Below are positions 7,612-36,227 of a stretch of DNA of 64,000 nucleotides, piece after piece. Both the position numbers and the translations under genes were made by a program. Source of the stretch: Pseudonocardia acidicola (GTDB lineage Bacteria; Actinomycetota; Actinomycetes; Mycobacteriales; Pseudonocardiaceae); NCBI RefSeq assembly GCF_012911935.1, contig NZ_JAAXLA010000003.1:62001-126000 (forward strand). Direction: 5' to 3'. Each line of letters starts with the position of its first letter. The stretch's first letter is position 1. The notes below the pieces were generated by a model. The model was not told the DNA's origin. It worked only from the letters and a program-made list of their open reading frames with translations, and made no database searches.

Positions 7612-9063
7612 ATGCTGCGCAACGCATTCGGGCGACGCGGACGGCGTCTCGCCGTCGCCGCGACGATGGCGGTGGCCACGATCGTGGCGACGCTGACCGC
7701 CACCTCCGGCACGGCTCTGGCGGGCGACGGGCGACCGGCCGCGCCCCGGATCGGACACGTCTGGACGATCATCCTGGAGAACAAGTCGTACGAGTCGACG
7801 TTCACCGGGCTGAACCAGAACGACTACCTCTGGAAGACCCTGCCCAGCTACGGCCTGCTCCTGCGCCAGTACTACGGGACCGGGCACTACAGCCTCGACA
7901 ACTACATCAGCCTCGTTTCCGGCCAGTCGCCCGCACCCGACAACCAGAACGACTGCCCGCAGTACAAGGACGTACAGCCCGGCTCCCCCGCGGTCGACGG
8001 CCAGGTCCACGTCTCGAGCGGCTGCGTCTATCCCGCCTCGGTGCCGACACTGTTCAACCAGCTGGACGAGAAGAAGGTCAGCTGGAAGATCTACGCCCAG
8101 GACATGGGCAAGACCCCGTCCCGGGAGAACGCCTACCAGTGCGGCATCCCGGGCTCCCCCACCGGCGCCGGCGTGCCCGATCCCAGCGGGGCGACCGCCG
8201 AGGACCAGTACGTCGCCAAGCACAACCCGGCGCCGTGGTTCCACTCGCTGATCGACAAGCCGGCGGACTGCGCGCGGGTCGTGCCGCTGGACGGCCTGCC
8301 CGCGACCGCCGGCCACCCGGCGGCGAGCGGCCTCGCCCAGGACCTGGCCAGCGAGGCCACCACCCCACGCTTCTCCTGGATCACCCCGGACAACTGCTCG
8401 GACGCCCACGACGCGACCTGCAAGGGCGACAACCTCTCCGGCGACCCGAACAACCACCAGGGCGGGCTGTACGCGGCCGACCTGTTCCTGCAGCGGGTGA
8501 TCCCGCAGATCATGAAGTCGCCGGCGTTCCAGCACGACGGCATGATCCAGATCCTGTTCGACGAGGCCTTCCCGCCGTACAAGATGTACGGCAACTCGAT
8601 CGCCGACTTCACCGGCAACGGCACCGCGAGCCTCAACACCCCGACCGACACCGCCCAGTCGGTCGTTGCCTGCTGCAACGAGCTGCCCGGCCCGAACACC
8701 GCCCAGCCCGGGTTCCAGGCGTTCGGCCAGGACACCACCCCGGGCGGCGGGATCACCGGCGCGGTGTTCATCAGCCGCTTCATCCGCCCGGGATCGGTCA
8801 CCGACCAGCCGTACAACCACTACAGCTGGCTGCGCAGCATGGAGGACCTCTACGGGATCAGCCATGGTGGCTCCGACGGCGACGGACACCTGGGTTACGC
8901 GGCCGCCCAGGGGCTGCGTCCCTTCGGCCCCGACGTCTACAACAACCCGGACGGCAGGGCCTTGCGGCCCGCCGCCTCGGGGACGGCCGTCTACCCGGCC
9001 ACCGCGAGCTCGCAGGACGCGGAGAACCCGGTCGTCACCGCGCCGGCGGTGCCGGTGAAGTGA
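7612..9063 (+). CDS. Secreted phosphoesterase (phospholipase C/acid phosphatase family)
   Basis: The 483-residue protein begins with a signal peptide (RRGRRLAVAATMAVATIVATL...ALA) and continues with HVWTIILENKSYESTF, the opening motif of PF04185 phosphoesterases. The family covers bacterial non-haemolytic phospholipase C and AcpA-like acid phosphatases. The SLDNYISLVSGQSPAP, FSWITPDNCSD and FDEAFPP segments supply the usual metal and phosphate ligands, including the Glu-Asn pair near the N-terminus. The many Cys residues suggest disulfides after export. It likely hydrolyses phosphate esters outside the cell; substrate is unknown. A lipoprotein gene overlaps its stop codon, so the two are co-transcribed and possibly coupled. 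No PHO-type box was identified upstream. Confidence 0.85.
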   Translation: MLRNAFGRRGRRLAVAATMAVATIVATLTATSGTALAGDGRPAAPRIGHVWTIILENKSYESTFTGLNQNDYLWKTLPSYGLLLRQYYGTGHYSLDNYISLVSGQSPAPDNQNDCPQYKDVQPGSPAVDGQVHVSSGCVYPASVPTLFNQLDEKKVSWKIYAQDMGKTPSRENAYQCGIPGSPTGAGVPDPSGATAEDQYVAKHNPAPWFHSLIDKPADCARVVPLDGLPATAGHPAASGLAQDLASEATTPRFSWITPDNCSDAHDATCKGDNLSGDPNNHQGGLYAADLFLQRVIPQIMKSPAFQHDGMIQILFDEAFPPYKMYGNSIADFTGNGTASLNTPTDTAQSVVACCNELPGPNTAQPGFQAFGQDTTPGGGITGAVFISRFIRPGSVTDQPYNHYSWLRSMEDLYGISHGGSDGDGHLGYAAAQGLRPFGPDVYNNPDGRALRPAASGTAVYPATASSQDAENPVVTAPAVPVK

Positions 9064-22656: not shown

Positions 22657-22950
22657 TCACGGGCCGTCCCGCTCCGGCAGCAGCATGCCCAGCGGGCCGA
22701 GGTCGATGTTCAGGTCGGCCGGGCTCAGCCCGAAGTGCTCCCGGAGGTCGGTCATCGCCTCCTCCAGCCGCATCAGCCCCAGCCCGAGCCGCTCGATCGT
22801 CTCGTCCGGGAGGGTCCCCGCCTCCACCCGCCGGATGGCCTGGCGCTCCATCAGCTGCCGGACCAGTTCGATGATCGTGAGCACCAGGCGACCGAGGTCG
22901 CGGCCCACCGACTCGGCGTCGGTCTCGATCCGGGTGGGCAGCTGCGTCAT
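22657..22950 (-). CDS. gvpK: Gas vesicle protein GvpK
   Basis: The 97-residue protein matches GvpK: ESVGRDLGRLVLTIIELVRQLMERQAIRR across positions 13-41, then ERLGLGLMRLEEAMTDLREHFG and the closing LNIDLGPLGMLL. GvpK is a minor component required for gas vesicle assembly, thought to assist nucleation or envelope formation. Its ATG at 22950 overlaps the TGA of gvpS as ATGA. It is the last gene of the operon, and a hairpin follows. Length and motifs are standard, so the protein should be functional. Confidence 0.93.
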   Translation of the reverse strand: MTQLPTRIETDAESVGRDLGRLVLTIIELVRQLMERQAIRRVEAGTLPDETIERLGLGLMRLEEAMTDLREHFGLSPADLNIDLGPLGMLLPERDGP

Positions 22951-23123
22951 GGTTGCTCCATCAAGGTCTCCACCGAGCTGATCAGCGCGCGCAGCGAGAC
23001 GTGCACGAGGTCCACCCCGGCCAGCGAGATGGTGACGTCGCCGGTCAGCACGACGCCCCCGGTCAGCAGCCGGTCGAGCAGGTCGACCAGGGTGACCTGG
23101 TCGCTGCGTTGCACGGCGGTCAC
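22947..23123 (-). CDS. gvpS: Small GvpA/J-family gas vesicle protein, GvpS
   Basis: The 58-residue protein has a single GvpA-type fold: VTLVDLLDRLLTGGVVLTGD followed by VTISLAGVDLVHVSLRALIS. The helix-strand-strand-helix pattern is that of GvpA but shorter, as in streptomycete GvpS. It is likely a minor shell or tip component. The GTG start at 23123 overlaps the gvpL stop, and its own stop overlaps gvpK. The name follows operon position between gvpL and gvpK; GvpM is the alternative label in other bacteria. Confidence 0.85.
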   Translation of the reverse strand: MTAVQRSDQVTLVDLLDRLLTGGVVLTGDVTISLAGVDLVHVSLRALISSVETLMEQP

Positions 23124-23875
23124 GTGTCGTCCAGGCCGGCGAAGGAGTACGGCGCCCACGGGCCGGTGAGCTCGAGCCGCAGCGCCGGTGCGTCGCAGGA
23201 GTCCACCAGCCCGCGCACCGCGTCGCCGTCACCGCCGGGCACGAGGTAGGCGGCGTTGAGCACCATCTCGTCGCGCCGCCCGGACAGACGCGGGTCCTGC
23301 GGCGGGTACACCCGGCTGGCCACGGCCAGCCCGGCGAGCCGCTCGTGCACTCGTCCGGCCTGGTCGCGGGCCGCCTGCAGGCTTCGGGCGGCGCGGTCGC
23401 GTTCGGCGCGACGGCGCATCAGGTAGTTCGTCCCGGGCCCGGCACCCGGCGCCGTCACGGTCGGCTCGTCGGCCTGTGGCCGGCCGTAGGCCTTGACCCC
23501 CCACTCGGCCCGGCCGCGGATGCGGTCGAGCGCCGCGGCGAACCGGGCCCGGTGCTCGCCGAGCAGCGCACGGACGTTGTCGTCACCGAAGTAGACCGTG
23601 GCCAGCCGCAGCGGCGCCGCCGGACCCTGCCGGGCGACGGCGCCGACGACGCCGTGGTGGGCCCGCGCCACCTGCTCGAGCCAGGTCAGGTCCTCCAGGT
23701 TGCGGCGCAGCGCCTCCTCACCGAACTCGGTGCCGTCGACCGTGCTGACCACGGCCGTCAGCCCGTCGGCGGTGATCCTCCGCACCGGTGCGCCGGTGAC
23801 GCCGGGCACGGCTGCGAGCTCACCGGACCGTCCCGCGTCGGTGACCGCGTAGACGTACACCGCGGATCCCGTCAC
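23120..23875 (-). CDS. gvpL: Gas vesicle protein GvpL/GvpF family, second copy
   Basis: The 251-residue protein opens with VYVYAVTDAG, has the conserved LEDLTWLEQVARAHHGVVGAV and AAPLRLATVYFGDDNVRALL segments, and ends with RLELTGPWAPYSFAGL, the standard signature of GvpL/F proteins. These proteins bind GvpA and are essential for vesicle formation. The GTG start at 23875 overlaps the gvpJ stop (GTGA). It differs markedly from the first family member at 24861-25592, so the two are ancient paralogues, not a recent duplication. The name L follows its place between gvpJ and gvpS. Confidence 0.92.
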   Translation of the reverse strand: MTGSAVYVYAVTDAGRSGELAAVPGVTGAPVRRITADGLTAVVSTVDGTEFGEEALRRNLEDLTWLEQVARAHHGVVGAVARQGPAAPLRLATVYFGDDNVRALLGEHRARFAAALDRIRGRAEWGVKAYGRPQADEPTVTAPGAGPGTNYLMRRRAERDRAARSLQAARDQAGRVHERLAGLAVASRVYPPQDPRLSGRRDEMVLNAAYLVPGGDGDAVRGLVDSCDAPALRLELTGPWAPYSFAGLDDT

Positions 23876-24210
23876 TCGATCTCACCGTCCCGCTCGCCGT
23901 CCGCCTCCAGTTCGCCGATCCGCTCGCGCAGCATCCGGTTCTCCTCCGCCAGGCCGCGTTGCCCCGAACTCAGCGTCGGGTCGTGCTCCCACCAGTCGAT
24001 GCCCATCTCCCGTGCCCGGTCGACCGACGCGACCAGCAGCCGGATCTTGATCGTCAGCAGCTCCACGTCGAGCAGGTTCACCCGGATGTCACCGGCGATG
24101 ACGATCCCCTTGTCGAGGACCCGTTCGAGGATGTCGGCCAGGTTGGCCGACTCGTGCCGTGCCGGCACGCGCGCGGCACCCGTGGACGGCAGTCCGCCGC
24201 TCAACGTCAT
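23872..24210 (-). CDS. gvpJ: GvpA-family minor gas vesicle protein GvpJ
   Basis: The 112-residue protein contains a complete GvpA-type domain (NLADILERVLDKGIVIAGDIR, then VNLLDVELLTIKIRLLVASVD). A predicted coiled-coil-like acidic tail, rich in Glu and Arg, follows. The shell protein GvpA has [21 protein letters not shown] at the equivalent place; the differences and the extended tail point to GvpJ, which shapes the conical tips. The ATG at 24210 follows GGGGGAG. The stop overlaps gvpL, and gvpO ends 2 bp upstream of its start. Confidence 0.9.
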   Translation of the reverse strand: MTLSGGLPSTGAARVPARHESANLADILERVLDKGIVIAGDIRVNLLDVELLTIKIRLLVASVDRAREMGIDWWEHDPTLSSGQRGLAEENRMLRERIGELEADGERDGEIE

Positions 24211-24212
24211 GA

Positions 24213-24596
24213 TCACTCCCCCCGGACCTGCCCGCGCGAGTACCGCCGGGTGCGGCGGTAAGAGAGCAACTCGCCGTGCGGGTCCAGTTCGGCTTCGTAG
24301 GTGGCGAGGATGTCGGCGGAGTCGGGGATGCGGCGGGTCTCGACGACCTCGATGCCGACCACCCACCCGTCCTCGCTGCGCTGGATCGAGACGATGCCCT
24401 CGGGGGTGCGCCCGGTCAGGTCGGCCACCTCGCGGGCGGCCAGGCGGGCGGCGGCCCCCGCCGAACGGATCCGTCCGTTGCGACGGGGGCCGTCGCCGTC
24501 GCCGCGGTCCTGCGGGTCGTCCCGCTCGGCCCGCGGACGGCGTCGCCGGCGCGGTGTCTGCGCATCGTCCTCGTCACGGGCGTTGTCGGTCACCAC
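24213..24596 (-). CDS. gvpO: Gas vesicle protein GvpO
   Basis: The 127-residue protein has a long basic, disordered N-terminal half (TPRRRRRPRAERDD...) and a C-terminal GvpO domain: AARLAAREVADLTGRTPEGIVSI, GWVVGIEVVETRRIPDS, then LATYEAELDPHGELLSYRRTR. GvpO is needed for vesicle production and may have a regulatory role. The start is GTG 24596 or 24593, behind GAGGAGG. In the Streptomyces operon I remember, gvpO is first; here it lies between gvpG and gvpJ. The charged N-terminal tail is a common actinobacterial variation. Confidence 0.9.
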   Translation of the reverse strand: MVTDNARDEDDAQTPRRRRRPRAERDDPQDRGDGDGPRRNGRIRSAGAAARLAAREVADLTGRTPEGIVSIQRSEDGWVVGIEVVETRRIPDSADILATYEAELDPHGELLSYRRTRRYSRGQVRGE

Positions 24597-24607
24597 GCCA
24601 GGCCTCC

Positions 24608-24856
24608 TCAGCCGCTGCCGGGCCGGCGCATCATCCGCTCCAGCAGGGCGTTCTCCAGTTCGGCACACTCCTGTTCGGACATCTCACCGGTGCGCCGCGC
24701 CTCGTCGATCGCCTCGAGCTGCGCCCGGATGCGGGCCGGGTCGTAGTACTGCTCCTCGGCTTGTTCGTGGATCTGCCCGGCCAGCCACATCACGCCGCGC
24801 ACCGGCCCGGTGACCGGCAGGAGCGGCAGGCCGAGCAGGCCCGTCAGCAGGCCCAC
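24608..24856 (-). CDS. gvpG: Gas vesicle protein GvpG
   Basis: The 82-residue protein opens with VGLLTGLLGLPLLPVTGPVRG, followed by VMWLAGQIHEQAEEQYYDP and a helical C-terminal part, IRAQLEAIDEARRTGEMSEQE. This is the standard GvpG layout: a hydrophobic start, then a charged helix. GvpG is a minor but essential assembly factor, thought to work with GvpF and GvpL. GTG 24856 starts it, overlapping the gvpF frame's end by a few bases of spacing only. It lies directly downstream of gvpF, as in other actinomycetes. Confidence 0.9.
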   Translation of the reverse strand: MGLLTGLLGLPLLPVTGPVRGVMWLAGQIHEQAEEQYYDPARIRAQLEAIDEARRTGEMSEQECAELENALLERMMRRPGSG

Positions 24857-24860
24857 GGAG

Positions 24861-25592
24861 TCATTCCGCCGGGACGAAGTCGTAGGGCGCCAGCGGTCCC
24901 AGCAGCCGCAGCCGCAGCCGACCGGCCAGCTCGGCACCCAGTTTCTCCACCGCGTCCTCGAACCGCTGCTGGTGCTTGCGTTCGACGAGGAACGCGGCGT
25001 TGACGACGTCCTCGGGCGCGGCCGGTTGGTGGGAGACGACCGCGACCGCCTCCGGGGCCAGCCGCTCCACGATCGCCGCCCCCTCCCCGTCCCGGCGCGC
25101 CTCCAACTCCTCGACGATGAGCTGGCCGAGGAAGACCCGGTCGTAGTACGAGGCATCCTCCGGTAGCCCACGGACCCGCTCGTGCAGCTCCCGGATCTCA
25201 GGATCGTCGGCGAGCACCTCGCGCAGGACCACCTCCTGCTCGTAGCGAGCCTTGAGCGTGAACTGCGTCCGCCCGTCCAGGTCGTCGAGCACCTCGAGGA
25301 AGTGGTCGTGATGCGGGACCAGCAGCTCGTCGACGACGCCGTCCCGCTCGACGACGGCCGGGAAGCGCATGGGCAGCACCGCCGTGGCGGCAGCCACCGT
25401 GTCCACCACGCGTTCGTGCGTGAACAGGTCGTCCCGGGTGCCCAGCGGGCGGTCCGCCGGGACGTCGCTGACGAGCGCGGCGAGGTCGCCGTGGACGACC
25501 GTCTCCACCTGGCCGGACTCCCCGAGGCCCACGAGGTCCTCGGGTACGGCCGCGTCCGATCTGATCAGGCCGTAGACGTAGGTCGGGTTCAC
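24861..25592 (-). CDS. gvpF: Gas vesicle protein GvpF
   Basis: The 243-residue protein is a typical GvpF/L: it starts [17 protein letters not shown], has [23 protein letters not shown], then [21 protein letters not shown] and the C-terminal [12 protein letters not shown]. GvpF binds GvpA at the interface of the growing vesicle. Its GTG start at 25592 overlaps the gvpA stop as GTGA. The position directly after gvpA and before gvpG identifies it as GvpF rather than GvpL. The second, divergent family member is at 23120-23875. Confidence 0.92.
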
Positions 25593-26029
25593 TCGTCACG
25601 CTCCCTCGCACGCTCCCGCTGTCGAGGACGGCGCCGTGGGCGCTCCTCGTAGTCCTCCTCGTCGCGGGAGCCACCGAGCAACTCCCCGACCTTGTCCACA
25701 GCGGCGTCGAGCATCCCATTGGTCTTGCCGCGTGCTCCGCTCTCCACGACCCCCTCGGTCAGGTCGGTGAGCCCCTTGGGGGCGTTCTCCCCCTGCAGGT
25801 CCAGCCGGTTCGTCGCCTCGGCGAACCGCAGGTAGGTGTCGACACTGGCGACGACGATCCGCGCGTCGATGGTCAGGATCTCGATACCGACCAGCGCCAC
25901 CCGGACGAACACGTCGATGACCAGGCCCTTGTCCAGGATCAGTTCGACGACGTCGGCGAGGCCGCTCGGGCCACCGCCACCGCCGGACCGCTCGACGTTC
26001 CCGCCACCTCGCTGGGTCGCAACCGTCAT
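25589..26029 (-). CDS. gvpA: Gas vesicle shell protein GvpA
   Basis: The 146-residue protein contains the near-invariant GvpA core: [20 protein letters not shown], then [20 protein letters not shown] and [15 protein letters not shown]. GvpA monomers polymerise into the vesicle wall. The protein is about twice the length of cyanobacterial GvpA because of a tail of about 65 residues, which begins after NRLDL, includes a helical stretch ([10 protein letters not shown]) and ends in an acidic-basic run of Arg and Glu. Streptomycete GvpA proteins are similarly extended. ATG 26029 starts it 3 bp after gvpZ. As the main shell protein it should be strongly expressed. Confidence 0.93.
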
Positions 26030-26032
26030 ACG

Positions 26033-27226
26033 TCATCGCCTCCGTCCGGAGCCGGCACCGGCCCGCTCCCGGGTACGCCGTTGCGGGCCTCCGTCGGCGC
26101 CGGGTTCCTCGTCCTCGTAGTCCTCGTCGCCGTAGTCCGCCTCGTCCTCGTAGTCCTCGTCCTCGTAGTCCGCCTCGTCCTCGTCGGCGTCGGCGTCGTA
26201 CTCGTCGGCGTCGGGCTCGTACTCGTCCTCGGCGCCGTCGGATTCCTCCTCGTCCTCGGCGGCGGCGCCTTCGACCTCGGCGCCCTCCTCGGCGCCTTCG
26301 GCCTCGGCCCGCTCGGGCCCGCCCGCGTCCTCCTGCCCGTTCTCGAACTCGTGCTGCGCCTCGCGTTCCTGCTCCTCCTTGAGTGCTTCCTCGTGGGTCT
26401 TCACGACCTCGCCGTCACGGATCTCGCCGCGCCAGCCCTCGACGTCCTCCTGGTGCAGGATCACATTGGTCATGGCGTGCCGGCGGAAGTGCTTGAACTC
26501 CAGCCGGGCGCGCCGGCCCTGGGCCCGCCAGAGGTTGCCGGTGTGCTCGAACAGGCCCTGCGGCCAGTACTCCATGACCAGCGCCACGCGGGTCAGGTTC
26601 GGACCCAGCTCGGTGAAGGTGACGGCCCCGTCGACGTGCCCCTTCGCGCCCTTGGAGCGCCACACGATGTGCGAGTCGGGCACCTGCTCGACGGTCGTCG
26701 CCTCCCAACTGCGGTGCGACAGGAAGATCTGCGCCTTCCAGTTCGACGTCTCATCGGCCGGGCGGTCGACGTTCTCCACCTTCTTCATGAAGCTGGGGAA
26801 GTCCTGGTACTGCGACCAGAGGTTGTAGGTGGTCCGCAGTGGGAGCCCGACGTCGATGGTCTCGACGATGTTGGTGACCTTCAGCTTCTTGCCGCCGCCG
26901 GGTTTCCGGCCGGCGCCGAAGAGGCCCTTCACCTTCTCCTTCAGCCCGCTGAGCAGGCCTCCGCCGTCCGAGTCCTCCTCGGACGACGCGCCGTCCCCGG
27001 AGGCTCGGCCCTCGTCGGGGGCCCGGCCGGTCAGTGCGGCCCGCAGGCCCTGCCCGCCGTCCTCGGCGTAGTCGGTCAGTCGTTCGGAGAGGTCCCCGAC
27101 GCGTTCGGTCGCGACCTGGGCGGCACGCTGCACGAGCAGGCCGAGGAGCCTGCTCCCCGCATCACGCAGCGCGTCGGTGGGAAGCGCGTCGGCGAGGCCG
27201 CCGGCCTTCCTGTTCGCCTCAGTCAT
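26033..27226 (-). CDS. gvpZ: SRPBCC-domain gas vesicle operon protein, GvpZ-like, with acidic repeat tail
   Basis: The 397-residue protein has an N-terminal helical region and a Gly/Ser/Asp-rich linker, then a polyketide-cyclase/SRPBCC fold (about 120-265). The fold is marked by VTNIVETIDVGLPLRTTYNLW, SFMKKVENVDRPADE, WEATTVEQVPDSHIVWRS and VALVMEYWPQGLFEHTG. The last 130 residues are extremely acidic, with repeated YEDED/DYEDE units (Asp/Glu/Tyr) and then a basic end. Such domains bind hydrophobic ligands; the role in vesicles is unknown. ATG 27226 overlaps the gvpY stop. In Streptomyces gvpZ sits mid-operon, whereas here it precedes gvpA. The name rests on fold and context. Confidence 0.75.
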   Translation of the reverse strand: MTEANRKAGGLADALPTDALRDAGSRLLGLLVQRAAQVATERVGDLSERLTDYAEDGGQGLRAALTGRAPDEGRASGDGASSEEDSDGGGLLSGLKEKVKGLFGAGRKPGGGKKLKVTNIVETIDVGLPLRTTYNLWSQYQDFPSFMKKVENVDRPADETSNWKAQIFLSHRSWEATTVEQVPDSHIVWRSKGAKGHVDGAVTFTELGPNLTRVALVMEYWPQGLFEHTGNLWRAQGRRARLEFKHFRRHAMTNVILHQEDVEGWRGEIRDGEVVKTHEEALKEEQEREAQHEFENGQEDAGGPERAEAEGAEEGAEVEGAAAEDEEESDGAEDEYEPDADEYDADADEDEADYEDEDYEDEADYGDEDYEDEEPGADGGPQRRTRERAGAGSGRRR

Positions 27227-27962
27227 CGCCCTCACCTCGGCGGCCGCGCGCCGACCGGCCGGTGCGGGCGGCCGTTCCGGCTGCTGCGCTCACCCGGCTC
27301 CCCACGGCATCCGCCTTCGCCGCGGTGCGCTTGCGGCCGTCCTTCGGCGCGCCCGAACGGGCGGCCCTGGACGGCGGGCTCGCGGCCTCCCGCCGACGAC
27401 TCGCGGGGGGTTCCCGATCGGGTTCGTCGCTGCCGGCCCGGTCCGCAGCGGAGCGCCGGCGCGTGGCGCGCGCGGGCTCCTCGTCCTCCTCGCGCTCGTC
27501 CTCATGCTCCTCGAGGTCTCCCGTGTCCTCGTCGGCGTCGGAGCGGTCGACGTCCTCGTCGAAGCCGCCCTCGACCTCGTCGGACTCCTCGGTCTCGCCG
27601 GCAGGCTCCCGGTCCTCGTCGTCCCGGCGCCGGCGGCCCTTGGGACCCGGCGCTCCGACGTCGCCGAGCGACTCGACCCGCTTACCCACGCGGTCGGTCA
27701 ACGCCTCGACCTGGCGGGCCGCCACGGCCATCGCGGCTCCCTTGCCCGCGTCGAGGAGCCGGCCGCGGACCTCGTCGGCGAGCCGTTGCAGTTCCGGCGA
27801 CCTCTCGAGGAGCTTCGTGCCCTGCGCGAGGAGCTCAGCCGGGCCGCCGTTGCGGCGCCCCGCCGCCATGCCCCCCAGCATGAGGGCCAGCTTCATCTTC
27901 TTCGTGCGGCCCAGGAAGTAGCCCCCCGCGACGCCGAGAGCTACTCGTGCTCCACATTTCAC
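27219..27962 (-). CDS. gvpY: Gas vesicle operon leader gene, GvpY-like
   Basis: The 247-residue protein begins with a short glycine-rich hydrophobic segment, ALGVAGGYFLGRTKKMKLAL, then an Ala-rich helical part (LLERSPELQRLADEVRGRLLD; MAVAARQVEALTDRV). The second half is low-complexity: acidic (DEDVDRSDADEDTGDLEEHED) then very basic and Ala/Arg-rich. GTG 27962 follows GGAGGA by five bases. The stop overlaps gvpZ. The N-terminal GYxLGRxKKxK element occurs in actinobacterial proteins next to gvp genes. I assign the Y name from pairing with the SRPBCC gene, so the symbol is tentative. It is first in the operon. Confidence 0.65.
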   Translation of the reverse strand: MKCGARVALGVAGGYFLGRTKKMKLALMLGGMAAGRRNGGPAELLAQGTKLLERSPELQRLADEVRGRLLDAGKGAAMAVAARQVEALTDRVGKRVESLGDVGAPGPKGRRRRDDEDREPAGETEESDEVEGGFDEDVDRSDADEDTGDLEEHEDEREEDEEPARATRRRSAADRAGSDEPDREPPASRRREAASPPSRAARSGAPKDGRKRTAAKADAVGSRVSAAAGTAARTGRSARGRRGEGDD

Positions 27963-28662
27963 TGATTTCCTCCAGTCGGTTTCCGGGCCCCGCCGGCGGG
28001 TGACGCAAACCGGACGGAATCGATCACGGCACCGACCTCGCCGGACCAATCGACCTCACGGCGCCTACCCGGGCCCAAGATCGTCCACTCCCGGGTACCG
28101 ACACCGTTCCAGAATTTGGTCCGAATGGCGCAGTCCGTGCCGGTCAAACGGATCTGCACGCGTCATCAAATGGAGTCACAACGATTCATGAACAATGCGA
28201 AGGGTGAGCGGCCCGCCGAATTCATCTGGGGCCGAACAATGCTCCCAGCTGCGGGGCCGCCGATTCAGGCAGGCGTGGCGCGTCCGGTCCACGGCGACCG
28301 CGGCAACCGTCCGCCCTGCTCGTCGGGACAACTGTGCGAGCACCTGCCGGCGCCGCCGAACCACCCGGCGACGATATCGGTCGATCAGCGGAATTCCCGA
28401 CCGGATACGGTGGCGATTATCGTCCCGGGAGCAGGATTTTGCGGTGCGCTCCGTCGCGATCCCCGCCGCTTTCCCAGCAGGTCGACCGCCTCGAAACGAG
28501 AACGCGCCCGACGTCGCAGATCCACTGTCGACGACCGATGACCTCTGCCCGCACGCCCGGTGTTCACCGGGGGCCGGAGGCACCGCCGTCACGGCCGGTC
28601 CCGAACGATCGGAGCCCGATTCGTCCACATCGACGGTTGGCCGCCGCCGCGGCGGGGAAGAC
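27963..28662. other. Intergenic region between the divergent gas-vesicle and methyltransferase operons
   Basis: About 700 bp separate gvpY (minus) from the methyltransferase gene (plus). Several stretches are unusually AT-rich for this genome, for example 28110-28200 and 28370-28450, as expected of promoters. I could not find a confident sigma-factor motif. Open frames here on both strands lack ribosome binding sites and recognisable motifs, so I call no gene. Both operons should be driven from this segment. Confidence 0.55.
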
Positions 28663-29328
28663 ATGATCGTGCTCTTGCTGCTGCGTCCGCCCGGGGTGTA
28701 CCGGGCCCAAGGTGACACCGCTCTGTTGACCGACGTGCTCCAGCGCGGTGGCTACGCCACCGGCCGGCACGTCCTGGACATCGGCACCGGAACCGGTGCC
28801 CTCGCACTGGCCGCGTCGCGGGCAGGGGCCGCGTCGGTCACCGCCGTCGACCTGTCGATGCGTTCGGTCGCGGCCACCTGGCTGAACAGCCGGCTGCACC
28901 GCGCGCCGGTCGCGGTGCGCCGTGGCGACCTGTTCGCCCCGGTCGCCGACCGGAAATTCGATCTCATCATGGCCAATCCGCCCTACGTCCCCGCTGCGAC
29001 CGCCGTGCTGCCGCGCTACCGGATGGCCCGCTGCTGGGACGCCGGCCCCGACGGCCGAGCGATCCTGGATCGGATCTGCGCCGGCGCCGCCGGGCGGCTC
29101 ACCGACGACGGCGTCGTCCTGCTCGTGCACTCCGCGGTCTGCGACGCCGAACACACGATCGCGCGGCTGGCCGAGGCCGGACTGGCCGGCGAGGTGATCG
29201 AGCGCGGCCAGGTCCCCTTCGGCCCGGTCATGCGGGCACGGGCCGCGATGCTCGAGGCGCGCGGCCTGGTCGAGCCCGGGCAGACCGTCGAGGAACTGGT
29301 CGTGGTGGGGGCGCGCCGTGCCGCCTGA
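28663..29328 (+). CDS. HemK/PrmC-like small methyltransferase
   Basis: The 221-residue enzyme has a class I SAM-binding core, VLDIGTGTGALALAASRAGA, followed by VTAVDLSMRSV. It also has the N-P-P-Y motif in LIMANPPYVPA, used by N-methyltransferases acting on Gln, Asn or nucleobases. It is shorter than PrmC and lacks its N-terminal helical domain, resembling HemK2/MTQ2-type enzymes. ATG 28663 follows GGGGAAG. It opens a five-gene operon; the CDGSH gene starts 11 bases before its stop. Association with Fe-S and diiron proteins suggests a small-molecule or protein modification pathway rather than release-factor methylation. The substrate is unknown. Confidence 0.8.
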   Translation: MIVLLLLRPPGVYRAQGDTALLTDVLQRGGYATGRHVLDIGTGTGALALAASRAGAASVTAVDLSMRSVAATWLNSRLHRAPVAVRRGDLFAPVADRKFDLIMANPPYVPAATAVLPRYRMARCWDAGPDGRAILDRICAGAAGRLTDDGVVLLVHSAVCDAEHTIARLAEAGLAGEVIERGQVPFGPVMRARAAMLEARGLVEPGQTVEELVVVGARRAA

Positions 29329-29533
29329 CCGCCGCCAGGTCGTCCTGACCGACGAGGGGCCCGTGCTGCTGTCCGGACCGGTCGACCTGGTGCTCCCCGA
29401 TGGGCGCCGGGTGACCTCGCAGCGGCCGGTGACCGCGCTGTGCATGTGCCGGCGCAGCCGCCGCTACCCGTTCTGCGACACCAGCCACCGCGCCAAGGTG
29501 CGGGCCACCCGCGAGGAGGGTGACCGGTGCTGA
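29318..29533 (+). CDS. CDGSH iron-sulfur domain protein
   Basis: The 71-residue protein contains one CDGSH cluster site: L-C-M-C-R-R-S-R-R-Y-P-F-C-D-T-S-H, where three Cys and one His bind a [2Fe-2S] cluster (C-x-C...C-D-x-S-H). A short beta region, VLLSGPVDLVLPDGRRV, precedes it. Such proteins pass electrons or clusters. The GTG start overlaps the upstream methyltransferase gene, and its stop overlaps the downstream redox enzyme gene, so the three are translationally coupled. It could be the electron donor to the diiron enzyme that follows; this is inference from gene order. Confidence 0.88.
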   Translation: MPPDRRQVVLTDEGPVLLSGPVDLVLPDGRRVTSQRPVTALCMCRRSRRYPFCDTSHRAKVRATREEGDRC

Positions 29534-30543
29534 GCGCCGCTCCGGTCCGGGCCGAGCAGGCCCCGGCGCCGCCCCCGCCGCGCGGCCCCCTCTCCACCGC
29601 GGTGCTCGCCCAGCTGCGCGGCGAGCCGGTCGCCAGACCCGACGTCCGGGCCGCCGACCCGTACGGCGACGACCTGCAGCTCGCGCTGTACTGCTGCTAC
29701 GAGCTGCACTACCGCGGGTTCGCCGGCGTCGACGACGACCGGGAGTGGGACCCGGCACTGCTGACGCTACGCCGCGAACTCGAGCAGGCGTTCCTCGCCG
29801 CGCTGCGGGCCGACGTCGCGCCCGGCACGGACGTCGCGGGAGAGGTGGAGGCGCTGCTCGTCGAGCCCGTGGACGCCGTCGGGGTGTCGCACCATCTGCG
29901 TCGCGACGGCGAGCGGTGGCAGCTGCGCGAGTACGTCGCGCACCGCTCGATCTACCACCTCAAGGAGGCGGACCCGCAGGCCTGGGTGATCCCGCGGCTG
30001 TCCGGGCCGGCCAAGGCCGCGCTCGTCACCGTCGAACACGACGAGTACGGCGGCGGTGATCCCGATCGGATGCACTCCCGACTCTTCGCCGACATGATGG
30101 CCGAGCTGGGGCTGTCCGACTCCTACGGCGCCTATCTCGACGCGGTACCCGCCGCCACCCTGGCCGAGGTCAACTTCATGTCGCTGTGCGGGCTGCACCG
30201 CAGCCTGCGCGGGGCCCTTGTCGGCCAGGTCGCCGTCGTCGAGCTGACGTCCTCACCCGGCTCGGACCGGCTGGTCCGGGCGATGCGCAGGCTGGGCTGC
30301 GGGCCGGCCGCGATCGGGTTCTACGCCGAGCACGTCGAGGCCGACGCGGTGCACGAGCAGATCATCCGCCGCGGCGTGCTCGATCCGCTGCTGGCCGCCG
30401 AGCCGGCGCTCGCCGCCGACGTCGTGTTCGGCATCCGGGCCAGCCTGCTGCTCGCCGACCGGCTCTCCGACCTGCTGCTGGACCACTGGGGCCGGGGCGA
30501 GTCCACCCTCCGGGCACCGCTGCCCGCGGCGGCGGACCGGTAG
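29527..30543 (+). CDS. Iron-containing haem-oxygenase-like redox enzyme (HDO family)
   Basis: The 338-residue protein matches the haem-oxygenase-like fold family PF14518. Likely metal ligands appear in the usual order: Glu and His in YELHYRGF, Glu/His/Glu in VTVEHDEYGGG, and FYAEHVEADAVHE later. Such enzymes use a non-haem diiron centre and O2 for N-oxygenation, C-C cleavage or decarboxylation. The N-terminal 40 residues are Pro/Ala-rich and disordered. GTG 29527 overlaps the CDGSH stop. Hemerythrin and EgtD-like genes follow, suggesting an oxygen-dependent amino-acid-modifying pathway. The substrate is not predictable from the sequence. Confidence 0.85.
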   Translation: MLSAAPVRAEQAPAPPPPRGPLSTAVLAQLRGEPVARPDVRAADPYGDDLQLALYCCYELHYRGFAGVDDDREWDPALLTLRRELEQAFLAALRADVAPGTDVAGEVEALLVEPVDAVGVSHHLRRDGERWQLREYVAHRSIYHLKEADPQAWVIPRLSGPAKAALVTVEHDEYGGGDPDRMHSRLFADMMAELGLSDSYGAYLDAVPAATLAEVNFMSLCGLHRSLRGALVGQVAVVELTSSPGSDRLVRAMRRLGCGPAAIGFYAEHVEADAVHEQIIRRGVLDPLLAAEPALAADVVFGIRASLLLADRLSDLLLDHWGRGESTLRAPLPAAADR

Positions 30544-30619
30544 GCCGTCCGTTTCGTCCAAGATCCCCCCGGGTATCTCGGCCGCGAAACCGTCCCGGCC
30601 GCCACTGAGAGGAAACCCG

Positions 30620-31120
30620 ATGTCGACCGACGCGATCGTGCTGCTCAAGCAGGACCACAAGGAGATCCGCAAGCTGTTCCGCGACTTCCAGGCCGCCGGG
30701 GAGAACGCGACCAAGCGCAAGGCGAAGATCGTCGACAAGATCCTCGAGGCGCTGACCGTGCACACCTACGTCGAGAACGAGTGCATGTACCCGGCCGTCC
30801 GCAAGCTGCTGCCCGAGGTCACCGACGACGTGCTGGAGTCCTACGAGGAGCATCACGTGGCCGACGTGCTGTGCATGGAGCTGGCGGCCTTGAAGCCCGA
30901 CGACGAACGCTTCGACGCCAAGACCACCGTGCTCATCGAGAACGTCACGCACCACATCGAGGAGGAGGAGCAGGAGTGGTTCCCGAAGGTGCGTGAGGCC
31001 CTGGGCCGCAAGAAACTCCAGGAGATCGGCGCCGAGATGCTGGAGGTCAGGAAGAAGGCCCCGCGCCGGCCCGAGCAACCGGGGGCGCTGAAGAAGGCGG
31101 TCGACGCCGTCCTGGCCTGA
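30620..31120 (+). CDS. Hemerythrin HHE-domain protein
   Basis: The 166-residue protein has the four-helix hemerythrin layout with the expected diiron ligands: LLKQDHKEI, then HTYVENE, YEEHHVAD and THHIEEEEQEWFP. It ends in a Lys/Pro/Ala-rich tail. These proteins bind O2, NO or iron and can protect from peroxide or nitrosative stress. ATG 30620 follows GAGAGGAAA. It lies 76 bp after the diiron redox enzyme and 3 bp before the EgtD-like gene, so it probably serves as oxygen or iron supplier for this operon. That role is inferred. Confidence 0.88.
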   Translation: MSTDAIVLLKQDHKEIRKLFRDFQAAGENATKRKAKIVDKILEALTVHTYVENECMYPAVRKLLPEVTDDVLESYEEHHVADVLCMELAALKPDDERFDAKTTVLIENVTHHIEEEEQEWFPKVREALGRKKLQEIGAEMLEVRKKAPRRPEQPGALKKAVDAVLA

Positions 31121-31123
31121 CCG

Positions 31124-32110
31124 GTGCCGGACGCCGGGCCCGCGGAGATCGTGGCCGTCGACGAGGAGGCGGCGTTCTGGGACGACCGTGCCGCCGTACT
31201 GGCCTGTCTGCGGGAACCGACACCACGGATCCCGCCCTGGTTCGGCTACGACGCGCGCGGCTCGCAGCTGTTCGAGTCGATCACCGAGCTGCCCACGTAC
31301 TACCTGACCCGGGTGGAGCGGGACCTGCTGGGCCGGCACGCCGCGCAGATGGCCGAGCTGATCGACTGTCGCCGGGTCGCCGAGCTGGGCAGCGGCAGCG
31401 CAAAGAAGACCCGGCTGCTGCTGGCGGCGTGCCTCGAACAGCGCCCGACCACCTATCTGCCGATCGACGTCAGCCGGGAGATGCTGGAGGCCAGTGGCGC
31501 GGCGCTGCGGGCCGAGCTGCCCGGCCTGGATGTCCAGGGCCTGTGGGGGCGTTACGAGGCCGGGCTCGGCTGGCTCCGCGACGGCCCGGCCGAGCCGGTC
31601 GTCGTGGCGTTCCTCGGCAGCAACCTGGGCAACACGACACCCGCCGAGCGGGCCGCGCTACTGTCCGAGATCACCGCGACGCTGCGCCCCGGCGACGGGT
31701 TCCTGGTCTCGGTCGACCTGCAGAAGCCCACGGACGTGCTCGAGACCTGCTACAACGACCCGCTCGACCGGTCGGCCTTCGCCGAGTTCCGGCTCAACCA
31801 CCTGACGCACCTGAACCGGCGCTTCGACGCCGACTTCGTGCTCGACTACTTCTACCCGCGCGCGCACTACGACCCGGCCGCCGCCGTGGTGGAGGGCCAC
31901 CTGTGGGCCACCGAGAAGCAGTCCGTCTCGCTGCCCGGGCTCGGCCTCGTGCTGCACCTGCGGCACGGCGACTCGATCAACGTGGGGTTCTCGGCGAAGT
32001 TCCACCGCCCACGGTTCGTGGCCGAGGTCGCCGGGCGCGGGTTCACCCTGCAGGCCCAGTGGATCGACGCCGTGTGGCAGTACGGGATCTTCCTGTTCCG
32101 GCGGATCTGA
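31124..32110 (+). CDS. EgtD-like SAM-dependent amino-acid methyltransferase
   Basis: The 328-residue protein belongs to the EgtD family (PF10017). Landmarks are PPWFGYDARGSQLFESITEL, then PTYYLTRVERDLL, the SAM loop ELGSGSAKKTRLLL, and YLPIDVSREML. It continues with FLGSNLGN and YNDPLDRSAFAEFRLNHL. EgtD trimethylates histidine in ergothioneine synthesis, but no egtB, egtC or egtA gene is near, so another amine may be the substrate. GTG 31124 begins 3 bp after the hemerythrin stop. It is the last gene of the operon. Substrate-binding residues would need alignment to decide between histidine and another amino acid. Confidence 0.82.
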   Translation: MPDAGPAEIVAVDEEAAFWDDRAAVLACLREPTPRIPPWFGYDARGSQLFESITELPTYYLTRVERDLLGRHAAQMAELIDCRRVAELGSGSAKKTRLLLAACLEQRPTTYLPIDVSREMLEASGAALRAELPGLDVQGLWGRYEAGLGWLRDGPAEPVVVAFLGSNLGNTTPAERAALLSEITATLRPGDGFLVSVDLQKPTDVLETCYNDPLDRSAFAEFRLNHLTHLNRRFDADFVLDYFYPRAHYDPAAAVVEGHLWATEKQSVSLPGLGLVLHLRHGDSINVGFSAKFHRPRFVAEVAGRGFTLQAQWIDAVWQYGIFLFRRI

Positions 32111-32352: not shown

Positions 32353-32847
32353 TTGCGTCTGCGCGCACTCCCCGCCCTGGCCCTCGGCGGCCTGCTCGTC
32401 CTGACCGGCTGCGCCGGTTCCGACGCCCCCGTGCCGGCGCCGGCACCGGCGTCGGCCCCCGGCGATGACCCCGGTTTCGGCCACGTGCACGACCTCGACG
32501 TCAACCCGGCCGACCCGCGCCGCGTCCTCGCCACCAGCGCGGACGGGTTGCTGGAGAGCCGTGACGGCGGGCGCACGTTCGCGCCCGCAGCGGCGCAGCC
32601 GAAGCGCCCCCTGCTGCTCGTCGACCAGGCCGGCCCGGCCGGGGGTGGCGGCACGCCGACCGTGGCCGGAGCCGGCGCCGACGGCACCGTCTGGTCGCCG
32701 GAGGGCGCCGAGTGGGTCGCCACGGGGTCGCTCGGGGCCCCGCCGGAGGCGTTCGCGGTGGCGGGGGCCGACCGCTACCTCGCCGCGACGGCCCACGGCG
32801 TGCGGTCCTCGGAGGACGGCGGCCGGACCTGGACACCGCTCGACTGA
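32353..32847 (+). CDS. BNR-repeat-like lipoprotein, possibly short F510_1955-type protein
   Basis: The 164-residue lipoprotein (signal with lipobox LVLTGCAGS) has beta-propeller repeat signatures: HVHDLDVNPADPRRVLATSADGL split by a turn, ESRDGGRTFAPAA, then VRSSEDGGRTWTPLD with the Asp-Gly-Gly-x-Thr BNR/Asp-box. The sequence resembles sortilin-like F510_1955 proteins found beside copper genes, but those are longer, so this may be a shortened copy. It starts with TTG 32353 after GAGGAC. It lies just upstream of the CsoR boxes and csoR. The biochemical role is unknown. Confidence 0.6.
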   Translation: MRLRALPALALGGLLVLTGCAGSDAPVPAPAPASAPGDDPGFGHVHDLDVNPADPRRVLATSADGLLESRDGGRTFAPAAAQPKRPLLLVDQAGPAGGGGTPTVAGAGADGTVWSPEGAEWVATGSLGAPPEAFAVAGADRYLAATAHGVRSSEDGGRTWTPLD

Positions 32848-32941: not shown

Positions 32942-33223
32942 ATGAACGGCTACGCCCAGGACAAGGACGCGTACCTCAAGCGCATGCGCCGCATCGAGGG
33001 TCAGGTCCGCGGCATCGCGAAGATGATCGAGAACGACGAGTACTGCATCGACGTGCTCACCCAGGTCTCGGCGGCCACCAAGGCTCTGGAGGCCGTGGCG
33101 CTGGGCCTGCTGGACGAGCACCTCAAGCACTGCGTCACCGAGGCCGCGGCCGAGGGCGGCCAGGTCGCCGAGGACAAGGTCGCCGAAGCCAGCGCGGCCA
33201 TCGCGCGCCTGGTCAAGTCCTGA
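32942..33223 (+). CDS. csoR: Copper-sensing transcriptional repressor CsoR
   Basis: The 93-residue helical protein has the RRIEGQVRGIAKMIENDEYC signature of the CsoR/RcnR family. Its Cu(I) ligands Cys35, His60 and Cys64 are in YCIDVL and EHLKHC, the W-x-Y-z arrangement of copper sensors rather than formaldehyde or nickel types. It should repress this operon until Cu(I) binds. ATG 32942 follows AGAAGGA. It is followed by copZ, a decayed gene and copA. Two operator candidates lie immediately upstream, consistent with autoregulation of the whole copper-resistance unit. Confidence 0.93.
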   Translation: MNGYAQDKDAYLKRMRRIEGQVRGIAKMIENDEYCIDVLTQVSAATKALEAVALGLLDEHLKHCVTEAAAEGGQVAEDKVAEASAAIARLVKS

Positions 33224-33265
33224 TCACCCACCACCTGATCGGCACAACGAGGAGAGCACCCGCAC

Positions 33266-33472
33266 ATGAGCGAGACCACCTACACCGTCACCGGCATGAC
33301 CTGCGCGCACTGCGTCGCCTCGGTCACCGAGGAGATCAGCGAGATCGAGGGCGTCACCGCGGTCGTGGTGGACCTGCCCACCGGAGCAGTCACCGTCACC
33401 AGCGACCAGCAGGTCGACCGCGCGCAGATCAACGCAGCCGTCGAGGAAGCCGGCTACCGGCTCGCCGGCTGA
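33266..33472 (+). CDS. copZ: Copper chaperone CopZ
   Basis: The 68-residue protein is a single heavy-metal-associated domain. The copper site is G-M-T-C-A-H-C at residues 10-16, with the usual beta-alpha-beta-beta-alpha-beta order, ending EEAGYRLAG. It carries Cu(I) in the cytoplasm to the CopA ATPase. The ribosome binding site ACGAGGAGAG is strong. It is the second gene of the csoR unit. Its Cys-x-x-Cys is MTCAHC, whereas CopA's own domain has MTCASC. Confidence 0.93.
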   Translation: MSETTYTVTGMTCAHCVASVTEEISEIEGVTAVVVDLPTGAVTVTSDQQVDRAQINAAVEEAGYRLAG

Positions 33473-33511
33473 GTCCCGCCGCCCACGGCGGCCCCACATC
33501 CGGAATGTGAG

Positions 33512-33953
33512 ATGAACACCGCTGCGGAGCTCTCCGCCTACGGTGCCCCCGGAGAGGGACGCCGCCAGCACCTACCGCATGTTCGCCGACGTCACCCGAC
33601 CGGCGGGGCGGCCACCACGCTGGGCGTCGACGTCTTCGCGCCCGGGCCGTTCGAGCCGGTCACGCACGCGCCGTCGCGCACCGCGCAGGTCGACGGCTGT
33701 CGGGTCGACATCACCGGTGACCCGGTGCCGGGCCCGGCCCCGCCGCTGACGCTGCCCGTCCGGTTCGTCGCCGAGGTGCCCGGCGCGGGCAGCTACCGGC
33801 TGTTCCTGGACTTCCGGCACAACGGCGTCGTGCACACGGCGGAGTTCACGGTGCCCACCGGACCGGCCACGCCACCCGCCGACGGCCCGGCGCCCGCGCC
33901 CGCTCCCACCCAGCCACAACGATCACCGATCGCACAGAACAGGACTGGAGACG
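33512..33953 (+). pseudogene. Decayed secreted metal-associated protein gene
   Basis: The frame starts MNTAAELSAYGAPGEG, recalling the start of actinobacterial secreted proteins (MNTAARLGAYG...) encoded next to copper ATPases, but the hydrophobic signal is replaced by an Arg/His-rich stretch. Later a recognisable C-terminal domain appears: TTLGVDVFAPGPFEPV, then [19 protein letters not shown] and [14 protein letters not shown]. The frame has lost its stop and runs on as a shadow through copA. A deletion or frameshift after the first ten codons is the simplest explanation. It lies between copZ and copA, where intact copies occur in relatives; this placement is from memory. Confidence 0.6.
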
Positions 33954-36227
33954 ATGAGCACCACCGCGGCGCCCCCGAGCGCCACCGTCACCGACATCGA
34001 ACTGGCGATCGGTGGGATGACCTGCGCGTCCTGCGCCAACCGCGTCGAGCGCAAGCTGAACAAACTCGACGGCGTCACCGCGACCGTCAACTACGCGACC
34101 GAGAAGGCCCGGGTCAACGCCCCCGAGGGCATCGACCCCGCGCTGCTCGTGGCGCAGGTCGAGGCGGCCGGTTACACCGCCGAGCTGCCGCGGCCCGCGG
34201 CCGCCGAACCCACCGCCGGCGCCGGCGGGGAGCCGGACCCCACCCGTCCGCTGCGCGACCGGCTGCTCACCAGCGTGGCGCTGTCCGTCCCCGTCATCGC
34301 GATGGCGATGATCCCGGCGTTGCAGTTCACCCACTGGCAGTGGATCTCGCTGACGCTGGCTGCGCCCGTCGTGGTGTGGGCGGCCTGGCCGTTCCACCGG
34401 GCGGCCTGGACGAACCTGCGGCACGGGGCGGCCACGATGGACACGCTCATCTCGATGGGCACCCTCGCCGCGTTCGCCTGGTCGCTCTACGCGCTGCTGT
34501 TCGGCACCGCCGGCGTCCCCGGCATGACCCACCCCTTCGAACTGACCGTCGCCCCCGGCGACGGCGCCGCCAACATCTACCTGGAGGTCGCCGCCGGGGT
34601 GACCACGTTCATCCTGGCCGGGCGCTACTTCGAGGCCCGGTCCAAGCGCCGGGCCGGTGCCGCGCTGCGCGCGCTGCTGGAGCTGGGCGCCAAGGACGTC
34701 GCGGTACTGCGGAACGGGACGGAGACCCGGATCCCGACCGACCAGCTGGTCATCGGCGACCGGTTCGTGGTCCGGCCCGGCGAGAAGATCGCCACCGACG
34801 GCGTGGTCGAGGACGGCGCCTCCGCGGTCGACGCGTCGATGCTCACCGGCGAGTCGGTCCCGGTGGAGGTGCGATCCGGCGACACCGTGGTCGGCGCGAC
34901 GGTCAACGCGGGCGGGCGGCTCGTCGTCCGGGCCACCCGGATCGGTGCCGACACCCAGCTCGCCCAGATGGCCAGGCTCGTCGAGGACGCCCAGAACGGC
35001 AAGGCGGCCGTACAGCGGCTGGCCGACCGGATCTCCGGGGTGTTCGTGCCGATCGTCATCGCGCTGGCCGCGGCGACACTGGGCTTCTGGCTGGGTGCGG
35101 GCGCCGGCGCGGCCGCGGCGTTCACCGCCGCCGTCGCGGTCCTGATCATCGCCTGCCCGTGCGCGCTCGGGCTGGCCACCCCGACCGCGCTGCTCGTGGG
35201 CACCGGCCGCGGCGCCCAGCTCGGCATCCTGATCAAGGGACCCGAGGTGCTGGAGTCCACCCGCCGGATCGACACCGTCGTGCTGGACAAGACCGGCACC
35301 ATCACCACCGGCCGGATGGAACTGGTCGAGGTGCACACGACCGAGGGCACCGACGAGGCCGAGGCGCTGCGCCTGGCCGGCGCGCTGGAGAACGCCTCCG
35401 AGCACCCCGTCGCGGCGGCCATCGCCCGCGGGGCCACCGAGCGGGTCGGCGACCTGCCCGCGGTCGAGGACTTCGTCAACGTCGAAGGCCTGGGGGTGCA
35501 GGGCGTCGTCGACGGGCACGCGGTGCTCGCCGGCCGCACCGCCCTGCTGGAGCAGTGGAGCCGGCCGCTCCCGGCCGGCCTCGCGACCGCCAAGGTTGCC
35601 GCCGAGGAACGCGGCCGCACCGCGATCGCGGTCGCCTGGGACGGCGCCGCCCGCGCCGTGCTGGTGGTCGCCGACTCCGTCAAGCCGACCTCGGCACAGG
35701 CCATCGCCCAGCTGCGGGGGCTCGGCCTGACCCCGGTCCTGCTCACCGGCGACAACGCCGCGGTGGCCGCGACGGTGGCCGCCGAGGTCGGCATCGACCC
35801 CGGCCCCGACACCGTCATCGCCGAGGTGCTTCCCGCCGGCAAGGTCGACGTCGTCAAGCGCCTCCAGTCCGAGGGGAAGGTCGTCGCCGTGGTCGGCGAC
35901 GGCGTGAACGACGCCGCCGCACTGGCCCAGGCCGACCTCGGCCTCGCCATGGGCACCGGCACCGACGTCGCGATCGAGGCCGGCGACATCACCCTGGTCC
36001 GCGGCGACCTCCGGGCCGCCGCCGACGCCATCCGGCTGTCCCGGCGGACGTTGCGCACCATCAGGGGCAACCTGTTCTGGGCGTTCGCCTACAACGTGGC
36101 CGCCCTGCCGCTGGCCGCGGCCGGCCTGCTCAACCCGATGATCGCCGGCGCCGCCATGGCGTTCAGCTCGGTGTTCGTGGTCAGCAACAGCCTGCGGCTG
36201 CGCGGGTTCCACAGCATCAACCGTTAG
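33954..36227 (+). CDS. copA: Cu(I)-exporting P1B-type ATPase CopA
   Basis: The 757-residue pump has an N-terminal metal domain (GGMTCASC, Cys24 and Cys27), eight membrane helices, the A-domain TGES, and the intramembrane C-P-C at 401-403. Asp445 in DKTGT is phosphorylated, and [11 protein letters not shown] closes the P-domain. The helix-6 CPC with downstream Asn/Tyr and Met-Ser helices is typical of Cu(I)-specific pumps. It exports copper from the cytoplasm. ATG 33954 follows GGAGACG. It is the last gene of the csoR-copZ unit and ends 8 bp before the convergent GMC oxidoreductase gene. It is complete and normal in length. Confidence 0.95.

Follow-up and report, generated by a model that had tools for sequence, protein, structure and literature searches.

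Among the haem-oxygenase-like diiron enzymes (HDOs), HrmI acts on lysine and RohS on a small molecule. In streptozotocin synthesis, N-methylation precedes N-hydroxylation. SznF takes methyl-arginine as its substrate, and about a dozen HDOs among more than 10,000 have assigned reactions (PMC13108848). The metal motif is given as E-H-E-H-(D/E)-H; several characterised HDOs are described as ending with a diferric centre that needs an outside reductant, and SznF, UndA and BesC as needing added reductant for repeated turnover (PMC11363339). Where do the electrons come from? The mangotoxin proteins MboA and MboB are presented as perhaps the first dedicated pair of an HDO and a redox partner (PMC13185094). 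The locus considered here is a string of five genes in a 64,000-nucleotide stretch (the window) of Pseudonocardia acidicola, contig NZ_JAAXLA010000003.1. Three of them, encoding a methyltransferase (MT), a CDGSH [2Fe-2S] protein and an HDO, are referred to as the core. The source genome is 7.16 Mb in size, and the closest named relatives of the HDO are from Pseudonocardiaceae.

A recurring core of three genes

The core genes lie on the + strand in the order MT (28663..29328), CDGSH (29318..29533) and HDO (29527..30543). The MT and CDGSH reading frames overlap by 11 bases, those of CDGSH and HDO by 7. A gap of 76 bases leads to a hemerythrin-domain gene (30620..31120, +; PF01814, 63.7 bits, cut-off 25.3), and one of 3 bases from there to a gene for an EgtD-like amino-acid N-methyltransferase (31124..32110, +). 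A first-pass annotation, made from the letters of the window, had described five packed genes on one strand with the first three overlapping; the coordinates agree, and its five family labels are borne out by profile scans of each protein. It had also taken the five as one set. Do they belong together?

Two collections of loci were compared, with genes predicted by a codon-usage caller. The named loci comprise the 80 closest among 316 confirmed HDO loci. The phylum sample comprises 396 genomes taken evenly, 72 of them with an HDO match, and its 59 regions represent 60 of the 78 matches listed, counting that of the window; weak or partial matches, and G325 and G385, are left out. Neighbour counts in both collections are lower bounds, some contigs being cut. 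Within 2.5 kb of HDO in the named loci, MT is present in 69/80 and CDGSH in 74/80, four of the latter being fused to HDO in one frame. The phylum loci have MT in 20/59 and CDGSH in at least 38/59, a lower bound also because the motif scan that located CDGSH misses variant CDGSH motifs. The EgtD-like gene is found at this distance in 26/80 named and 0/59 phylum loci, and hemerythrin in 1/80 and 3/59. Other window neighbours are scarce anywhere in related loci (SRPBCC in 5/139, CsoR in 1/139).

Among the 86 loci with exactly one MT, one CDGSH and one HDO gene (window included), the trio occurs in seven arrangements of order and orientation, two of them seen once each. On the HDO tree this entails eight changes at the fewest, a count that is approximate, since the tree was built quickly and good support is limited to 53 of its 134 inner branches. 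CDGSH-HDO fusions number three among the 120 proteins listed. Adjacency kept through rearrangement, together with the fusions, is strong evidence for joint function, and in all likelihood MT, CDGSH and HDO form one functional unit. The core thus recurs, with many rearrangements, in several groups of Actinomycetota. Its grouping and the association of the EgtD-like gene go beyond chance; that of hemerythrin does not. Co-conservation across genomes accordingly holds for the core and, in some lineages, for the EgtD-like gene as an add-on, but the five-gene set does not survive the comparison, and hemerythrin, once proposed to supply O2 or iron, is rejected as a pathway component.

Other companions of HDO were seen in these loci. 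In 11/59 phylum loci (L136, L138, L141, L143, L149, L150, L152, L153, L155, L156 and L157), a GT2-type glycosyltransferase gene lies within 2.5 kb of HDO, and the 4 kb around HDO yielded no MT. An uncharacterised protein of about 323 amino acids (L035:2576-3547 and 17 other loci) has 13 copies within 3 kb of HDO, and the copy that was scanned has no Pfam match. In L165, L166 and L168, neither MT nor CDGSH was found near HDO; what lies close by is a Ku gene (PF02735; of these loci, only L168 was scanned) or genes that by eye are LigD-polymerase-like.

The diiron enzyme and its putative electron donor

The HDO matches PF14518 at 204.2 bits (cut-off 28.9) and has the haem-oxygenase-like fold. Residues E147, E173, H183, E239, H269, D273 and H276 are invariant in 138/138 relatives and align with the SznF ligand positions. 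The family motif is thereby present, with a seventh Glu as in SznF; from these positions, binding of two metals and O2 activation are predicted. The AF2 model (pLDDT 91.1) has HrmI, SznF and RohS as its best structural matches in a re-ranking of Foldseek's best 1000 chains, and AetD is absent from the best 50 entries of that ranking. N-oxygenases are thus the closest solved kin, by structure and by sequence. The enzyme differs from all three in its low identity (about 20%) and in having CDGSH and MT as gene partners. Its near-invariant R140, K146, D149, R157, K163, R225, S242 and R255 are not common to SznF, and it has 338 residues and no cupin, whereas SznF carries one at its C-terminal end. 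Catalysis of N-oxygenation by this HDO, argued from its kin, is somewhat favoured. That it is an amino-acid-type HDO and part of an apparently undescribed multi-enzyme unit, as the first-pass annotation had suggested, is supported: no description of the core unit was found in open-licence literature, nor any paper there joining 'iron-containing redox enzyme' with CDGSH.

The CDGSH protein, the sole PF09360 match in the genome (59.3 bits, cut-off 29.5), has the 3-Cys 1-His ligand set of its cluster; Cys42, Cys44, Cys53 and His57 are kept in at least 95% of 58 relatives. Its loop is C-x-C-x2-S-x3-P-x-C-D-T-S-H, so that it reads CDTSH rather than CDGSH. As with MboA/MboB, an HDO is gene-linked to a [2Fe-2S] electron partner. 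MboB, however, is a flavin/Fe2S2 reductase, and the partner here is a CDGSH domain without flavin, stand-alone or fused; an upstream reductase is therefore still missing in this set. Fusion and adjacency recommend CDGSH as a candidate HDO redox partner, the second after MboB and of another type. The earlier idea of CDGSH as electron donor is supported by the fusions, and it is fairly probable that CDGSH acts as the reductant of HDO. A large, evolutionarily constrained HDO family would then have a candidate natural electron donor, fused in some species, and a linked methyltransferase. The electron source of HDOs, and the roles of some SigF-dependent 'conserved hypothetical' genes, are two questions that would become testable here.

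The methyltransferase

The MT (METHYLTRANSFERASE) scores 98.5 bits against TIGR00537 (HemK2/MTQ2; cut-off 87) and 81.2 bits against the PrmC family TIGR03534, well below its cut-off of 199.1. NPPY is present in 85/88 members of the MT cluster. The nearest solved structures are of human N6AMT1/HemK2, with HemK further off. Although it shares family and NPPY motif with HemK2/MTQ2 (N6AMT1), this MT is bacterial and gene-linked to an oxygenase. A related motif, NPPF, is described as confined, apart from PsiM, to N-methyltransferases that act on planar conjugated nitrogens (PMC10978996). A planar nitrogen methylated by MT (amide or guanidine) could also be the target of HDO; compare methyl-arginine for SznF.

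SigF/SigB-type promoters

Is the core expressed under stress? The motif GTTT-N14-17-GGG[TA]A was sought upstream of genes, with expected values from random windows of the same loci. It precedes MT in 10/68 named loci (0.23 expected). Before HDO it is found in 9/15 mycobacterial rows (0.5 expected; L099 and L129 are one locus) and in 4/47 other phylum loci (0.21 expected). Three successive patterns were used, and the two broader ones gave weaker excess. With the first, core leaders had the motif in 8/84 cases and other genes in 29/756 (named), and in 6/58 and 32/472 (phylum). With the second, the counts were 8/49 for MT and 30/823 for other genes in the named loci, and 12/52 for HDO and 43/506 for others in the phylum sample; MT in the phylum sample (0/12) and HDO in the named loci (0/39) had none. 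The binomial P values treat the loci as independent, although the genomes are related.

Published M. smegmatis data offer a stress-regulation clue. Expression fold-changes of the sigF mutant relative to wild type (exponential/stationary) are listed as -6.17/-5.69 for MSMEG_1771 ('methylase'), -5.91/-6.43 for MSMEG_1772 and -5.98/-4.09 for MSMEG_1773; the motifs are GTTT-N15-GGGTA for the first two and GTTT-N15-GGGAA for the third, with distances to the start codons of 29, 696 and 11 bases (PMC4694148). The promoter letters are given in PMC5445863. The layout is that of mycobacterial loci in the present collections, which have MT and CDGSH facing a gene for HDO that stands apart (in L132, MT starts at 7099 and CDGSH at 7791): the methylase comes first, the second gene starts about 667 bases on, and the third has its own SigF-type motif. 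By eye, the motifs in L102 are similar to those published, down to the rarer GGGAA ahead of HDO. MSMEG_1771-1773 are therefore apparent, SigF-dependent counterparts of the core, with orthology judged from layout and motif likeness, protein sequences aside.

In the window itself, the only candidate is GGTT-N16-GGGAA at 28635..28659 (+), and it is doubtful. The nearest relative, L004, has GTTT-N16-GGGAA at about the same position; GGTT-N16-GGGTA and GTTT-N16-GGGAA are among the variants listed for SigF genes (PMC4694148).

Near the mycobacterial loci, genes for STAS, STAS, HATPase and SpoIIE-phosphatase proteins stand in a row immediately before HDO, as in a stressosome (L123:3396-7933, whose first four genes were scanned; L125 is alike). 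In L129 a manganese catalase gene accompanies a hemerythrin gene.

The EgtD-like paralogue

The last gene of the string matches PF10017 at 294.6 bits (cut-off 23), but against the EgtD equivalog TIGR03438 it reaches 259.3 bits, below the cut-off of 290.9. The first-pass annotation had stated that no ergothioneine genes are nearby. This is true locally; egtA (428.9 bits), egtB (444), egtC (277.4) and egtD (370), all above their NCBIfam cut-offs, lie on another contig of the same genome (C114), where egtA, egtB and egtC sit with the other EgtD. The gene of the window is thus outside the ergothioneine operon.

Compared with M. smegmatis EgtD (entries 4uy6 and 4pim), the histidine N-alpha-methyltransferase, the window copy keeps Y39, N166, Y206 and S284, but M252 and E282, taken to be the histidine-reading residues, are both Gly. 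The genome's true EgtD keeps Met252 and Glu282. Neighbouring paralogues have Gly282 in 24/24 and, at position 252, Gly in 22 and Ala in two; five further EgtD-like copies are Gly/Gly in four cases and Val/Ser in one. Entry 4pip has Val252 and Ala282 at these positions, and this double mutant presumably accepts aromatic amino acids. From the two residue losses, the separate egtABCD and the likeness to 4pip, a role of the paralogue in ergothioneine synthesis is very improbable and a wider pocket very probable, in line with the earlier expectation that it stands outside ordinary ergothioneine synthesis; as the genome's ergothioneine enzyme it is rejected. A substrate other than histidine is likely. 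These EgtD relatives with an altered pocket make up a family that can be assayed directly.

How closely does the paralogue follow the core? When 200 genomes of the window's family were searched, 153 matched the HDO query, a few weakly. Among the matches listed, at least 20/200 genomes have the paralogue (19 at more than 330 bits, one partial at 65% identity), and all 20 also carry HDO (hypergeometric P 0.003, related genomes being counted as independent). It lies within 4 kb of HDO in 15 of these, beside MT at a contig end in one and apart in four. In the named loci its position varies: downstream of HDO or upstream of MT, on either strand. The EgtD-like gene is a genuine partner of the core in a limited set of lineages, an add-on in Pseudonocardia, Nocardiopsis, Saccharopolyspora and relatives.

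Two of the four genomes where it stands apart, G1129 and G1141, have it paired in a unit of two genes with one for a 2OG-Fe dioxygenase of PF10014, a family that includes free-amino-acid hydroxylases. The Gly252/Gly282 copies with PF10014 genes at L175:5995-7775 and L176:5237-6960 are candidate betaine-hydroxylating pairs. At L181:3620-5972, an EgtD-like gene with Val252/Ser282 follows a class I/II aminotransferase gene and represents another specificity variant.

A putative stress pathway and its rivals

What might the core do? The reading put forward, tentatively, is a pathway of general stress in which a small nitrogen compound is N-methylated and N-oxygenated; CDGSH would be the dedicated donor of electrons, and the three proteins would share one reaction sequence. 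The core would be made under SigF/SigB-type general stress, at least in several lineages. MT would methylate a planar nitrogen (amide, guanidine or similar), and the diiron centre of HDO would, with O2, oxidise nitrogen of the same small amino-acid-like compound, as in HrmI, SznF and RohS; CDGSH would re-reduce the diferric centre. The EgtD-like enzyme of Pseudonocardia, Nocardiopsis and relatives would N-methylate an alpha-amino acid, either as substrate or as side product. A small-molecule substrate, rather than a macromolecule, is rather probable, and a betaine-type product is possible. The promoter link in several lineages speaks for a role in stress rather than for an antibiotic cluster of the usual sort. 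More tentative still is the fuller version, in which a CDGSH-fed, N-oxygenating HDO serves a general-stress pathway across several Actinomycetota lineages and the product is an N-methylated, N-oxygenated, amino-acid-derived protectant or signal, in some lineages with a non-histidine betaine besides.

Several observations weigh against this reading. In 39/59 phylum loci MT was undetected within 2.5 kb of HDO, and in 15/59 HDO has none of the searched partners within 4 kb (some contigs being cut in both cases). HDO reactions are reported to diverge even with identical ligands (PMC13108848), and kinship to N-oxygenases is therefore weak proof of N-oxygenation. Relatives of MTQ2 methylate glutamine in proteins, and a protein substrate would be in keeping with this. 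The window's own promoter candidate is weak and overlaps the likely ribosome-binding region. The motif excess is confined to certain lineages. Before HDO, the motif is found in 0/79 cases in the named loci; none is expected where HDO follows MT or CDGSH (62/80), as a promoter would precede the first gene, but the 18 loci where HDO leads or stands alone also lack it. Nor is there an excess before MT in mycobacterial (1/13) or other phylum loci (0/11). A search by its published promoter found the M. smegmatis locus in 0/201 and 0/396 genomes, and the species is not among the 120 listed proteins searched by name.

A protein substrate for MT is the main rival. The core would then modify a macromolecule under stress, MT acting on glutamine or lysine, HDO hydroxylating a side chain and CDGSH giving electrons, with no diffusible product. 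The nearest solved relatives of MT are indeed protein methyltransferases, the SigF/SigB-type setting suits this proposal as well, and HDOs that act on a peptide or protein are described, MboA on a tripeptide and CADD on itself (PMC13185094, PMC13108848). The nearest kin of this HDO, however, act on small molecules (HrmI, SznF and RohS), and the EgtD-like partner and, elsewhere, the adjoining 2OG-Fe dioxygenase point to free amino acids. Modification of a macromolecule is on balance unlikely.

The first-pass annotation had favoured a betaine pathway, in which the EgtD-like enzyme trimethylates a non-histidine (e.g. aromatic) amino acid, HDO oxidises the product and hemerythrin gives O2 or iron. 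Gly252/Gly282 do resemble, with smaller residues, the Val/Ala of 4pip, which presumably accepts aromatic amino acids, and the EgtD-like gene lies beside HDO or MT in 16 of the 20 genomes among the matches listed. Yet 54/80 named and 59/59 phylum HDO loci have no EgtD-like gene within 2.5 kb (some contigs cut), so that in most hosts a betaine requirement of HDO is hard to uphold, and hemerythrin is not conserved with the core. This pathway is improbable.

Far less credible is a cluster for a metal-binding or antibiotic metabolite, similar to fluopsin and tied to the metal genes that start at 32942 (CsoR-type repressor, HMA protein, P-type ATPase): CsoR recurs in only 1/139 related loci, no assembly-line gene recurred among the neighbour-gene clusters examined, and the diiron motif is complete in this HDO, in contrast to what is reported for FlcD (PMC11363339). 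That the genes are chance neighbours without joint function could be argued from the HDOs without searched partners, but for the core it is contradicted by adjacency through seven gene orders, by the fusions and by the rarity of other window neighbours in relatives, and it is the least probable reading of all, standing only for hemerythrin.

Surrounding genes

Upstream, and pointing away from the core, are an SRPBCC gene (26033-27235) and, next to it, a gas vesicle cluster (22657-26029, -) encoding GvpK, two GvpL/F and two PF00741 proteins. Gas vesicle genes are under SigB-type control in Streptomyces. Downstream lies a metal island, probably for copper (32942-36227, +), with genes for the CsoR-type repressor (PF02583), the HMA-domain protein and the P-type ATPase; a link of the core to these genes is rejected, CsoR being found in 0/80 named loci and in a single one of all 139. 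A short open reading frame between the string and the island (32353-32847, +) is a part match to the F510_1955 glycosylhydrolase family (53.9 bits, cut-off 175) and is probably a fragment.

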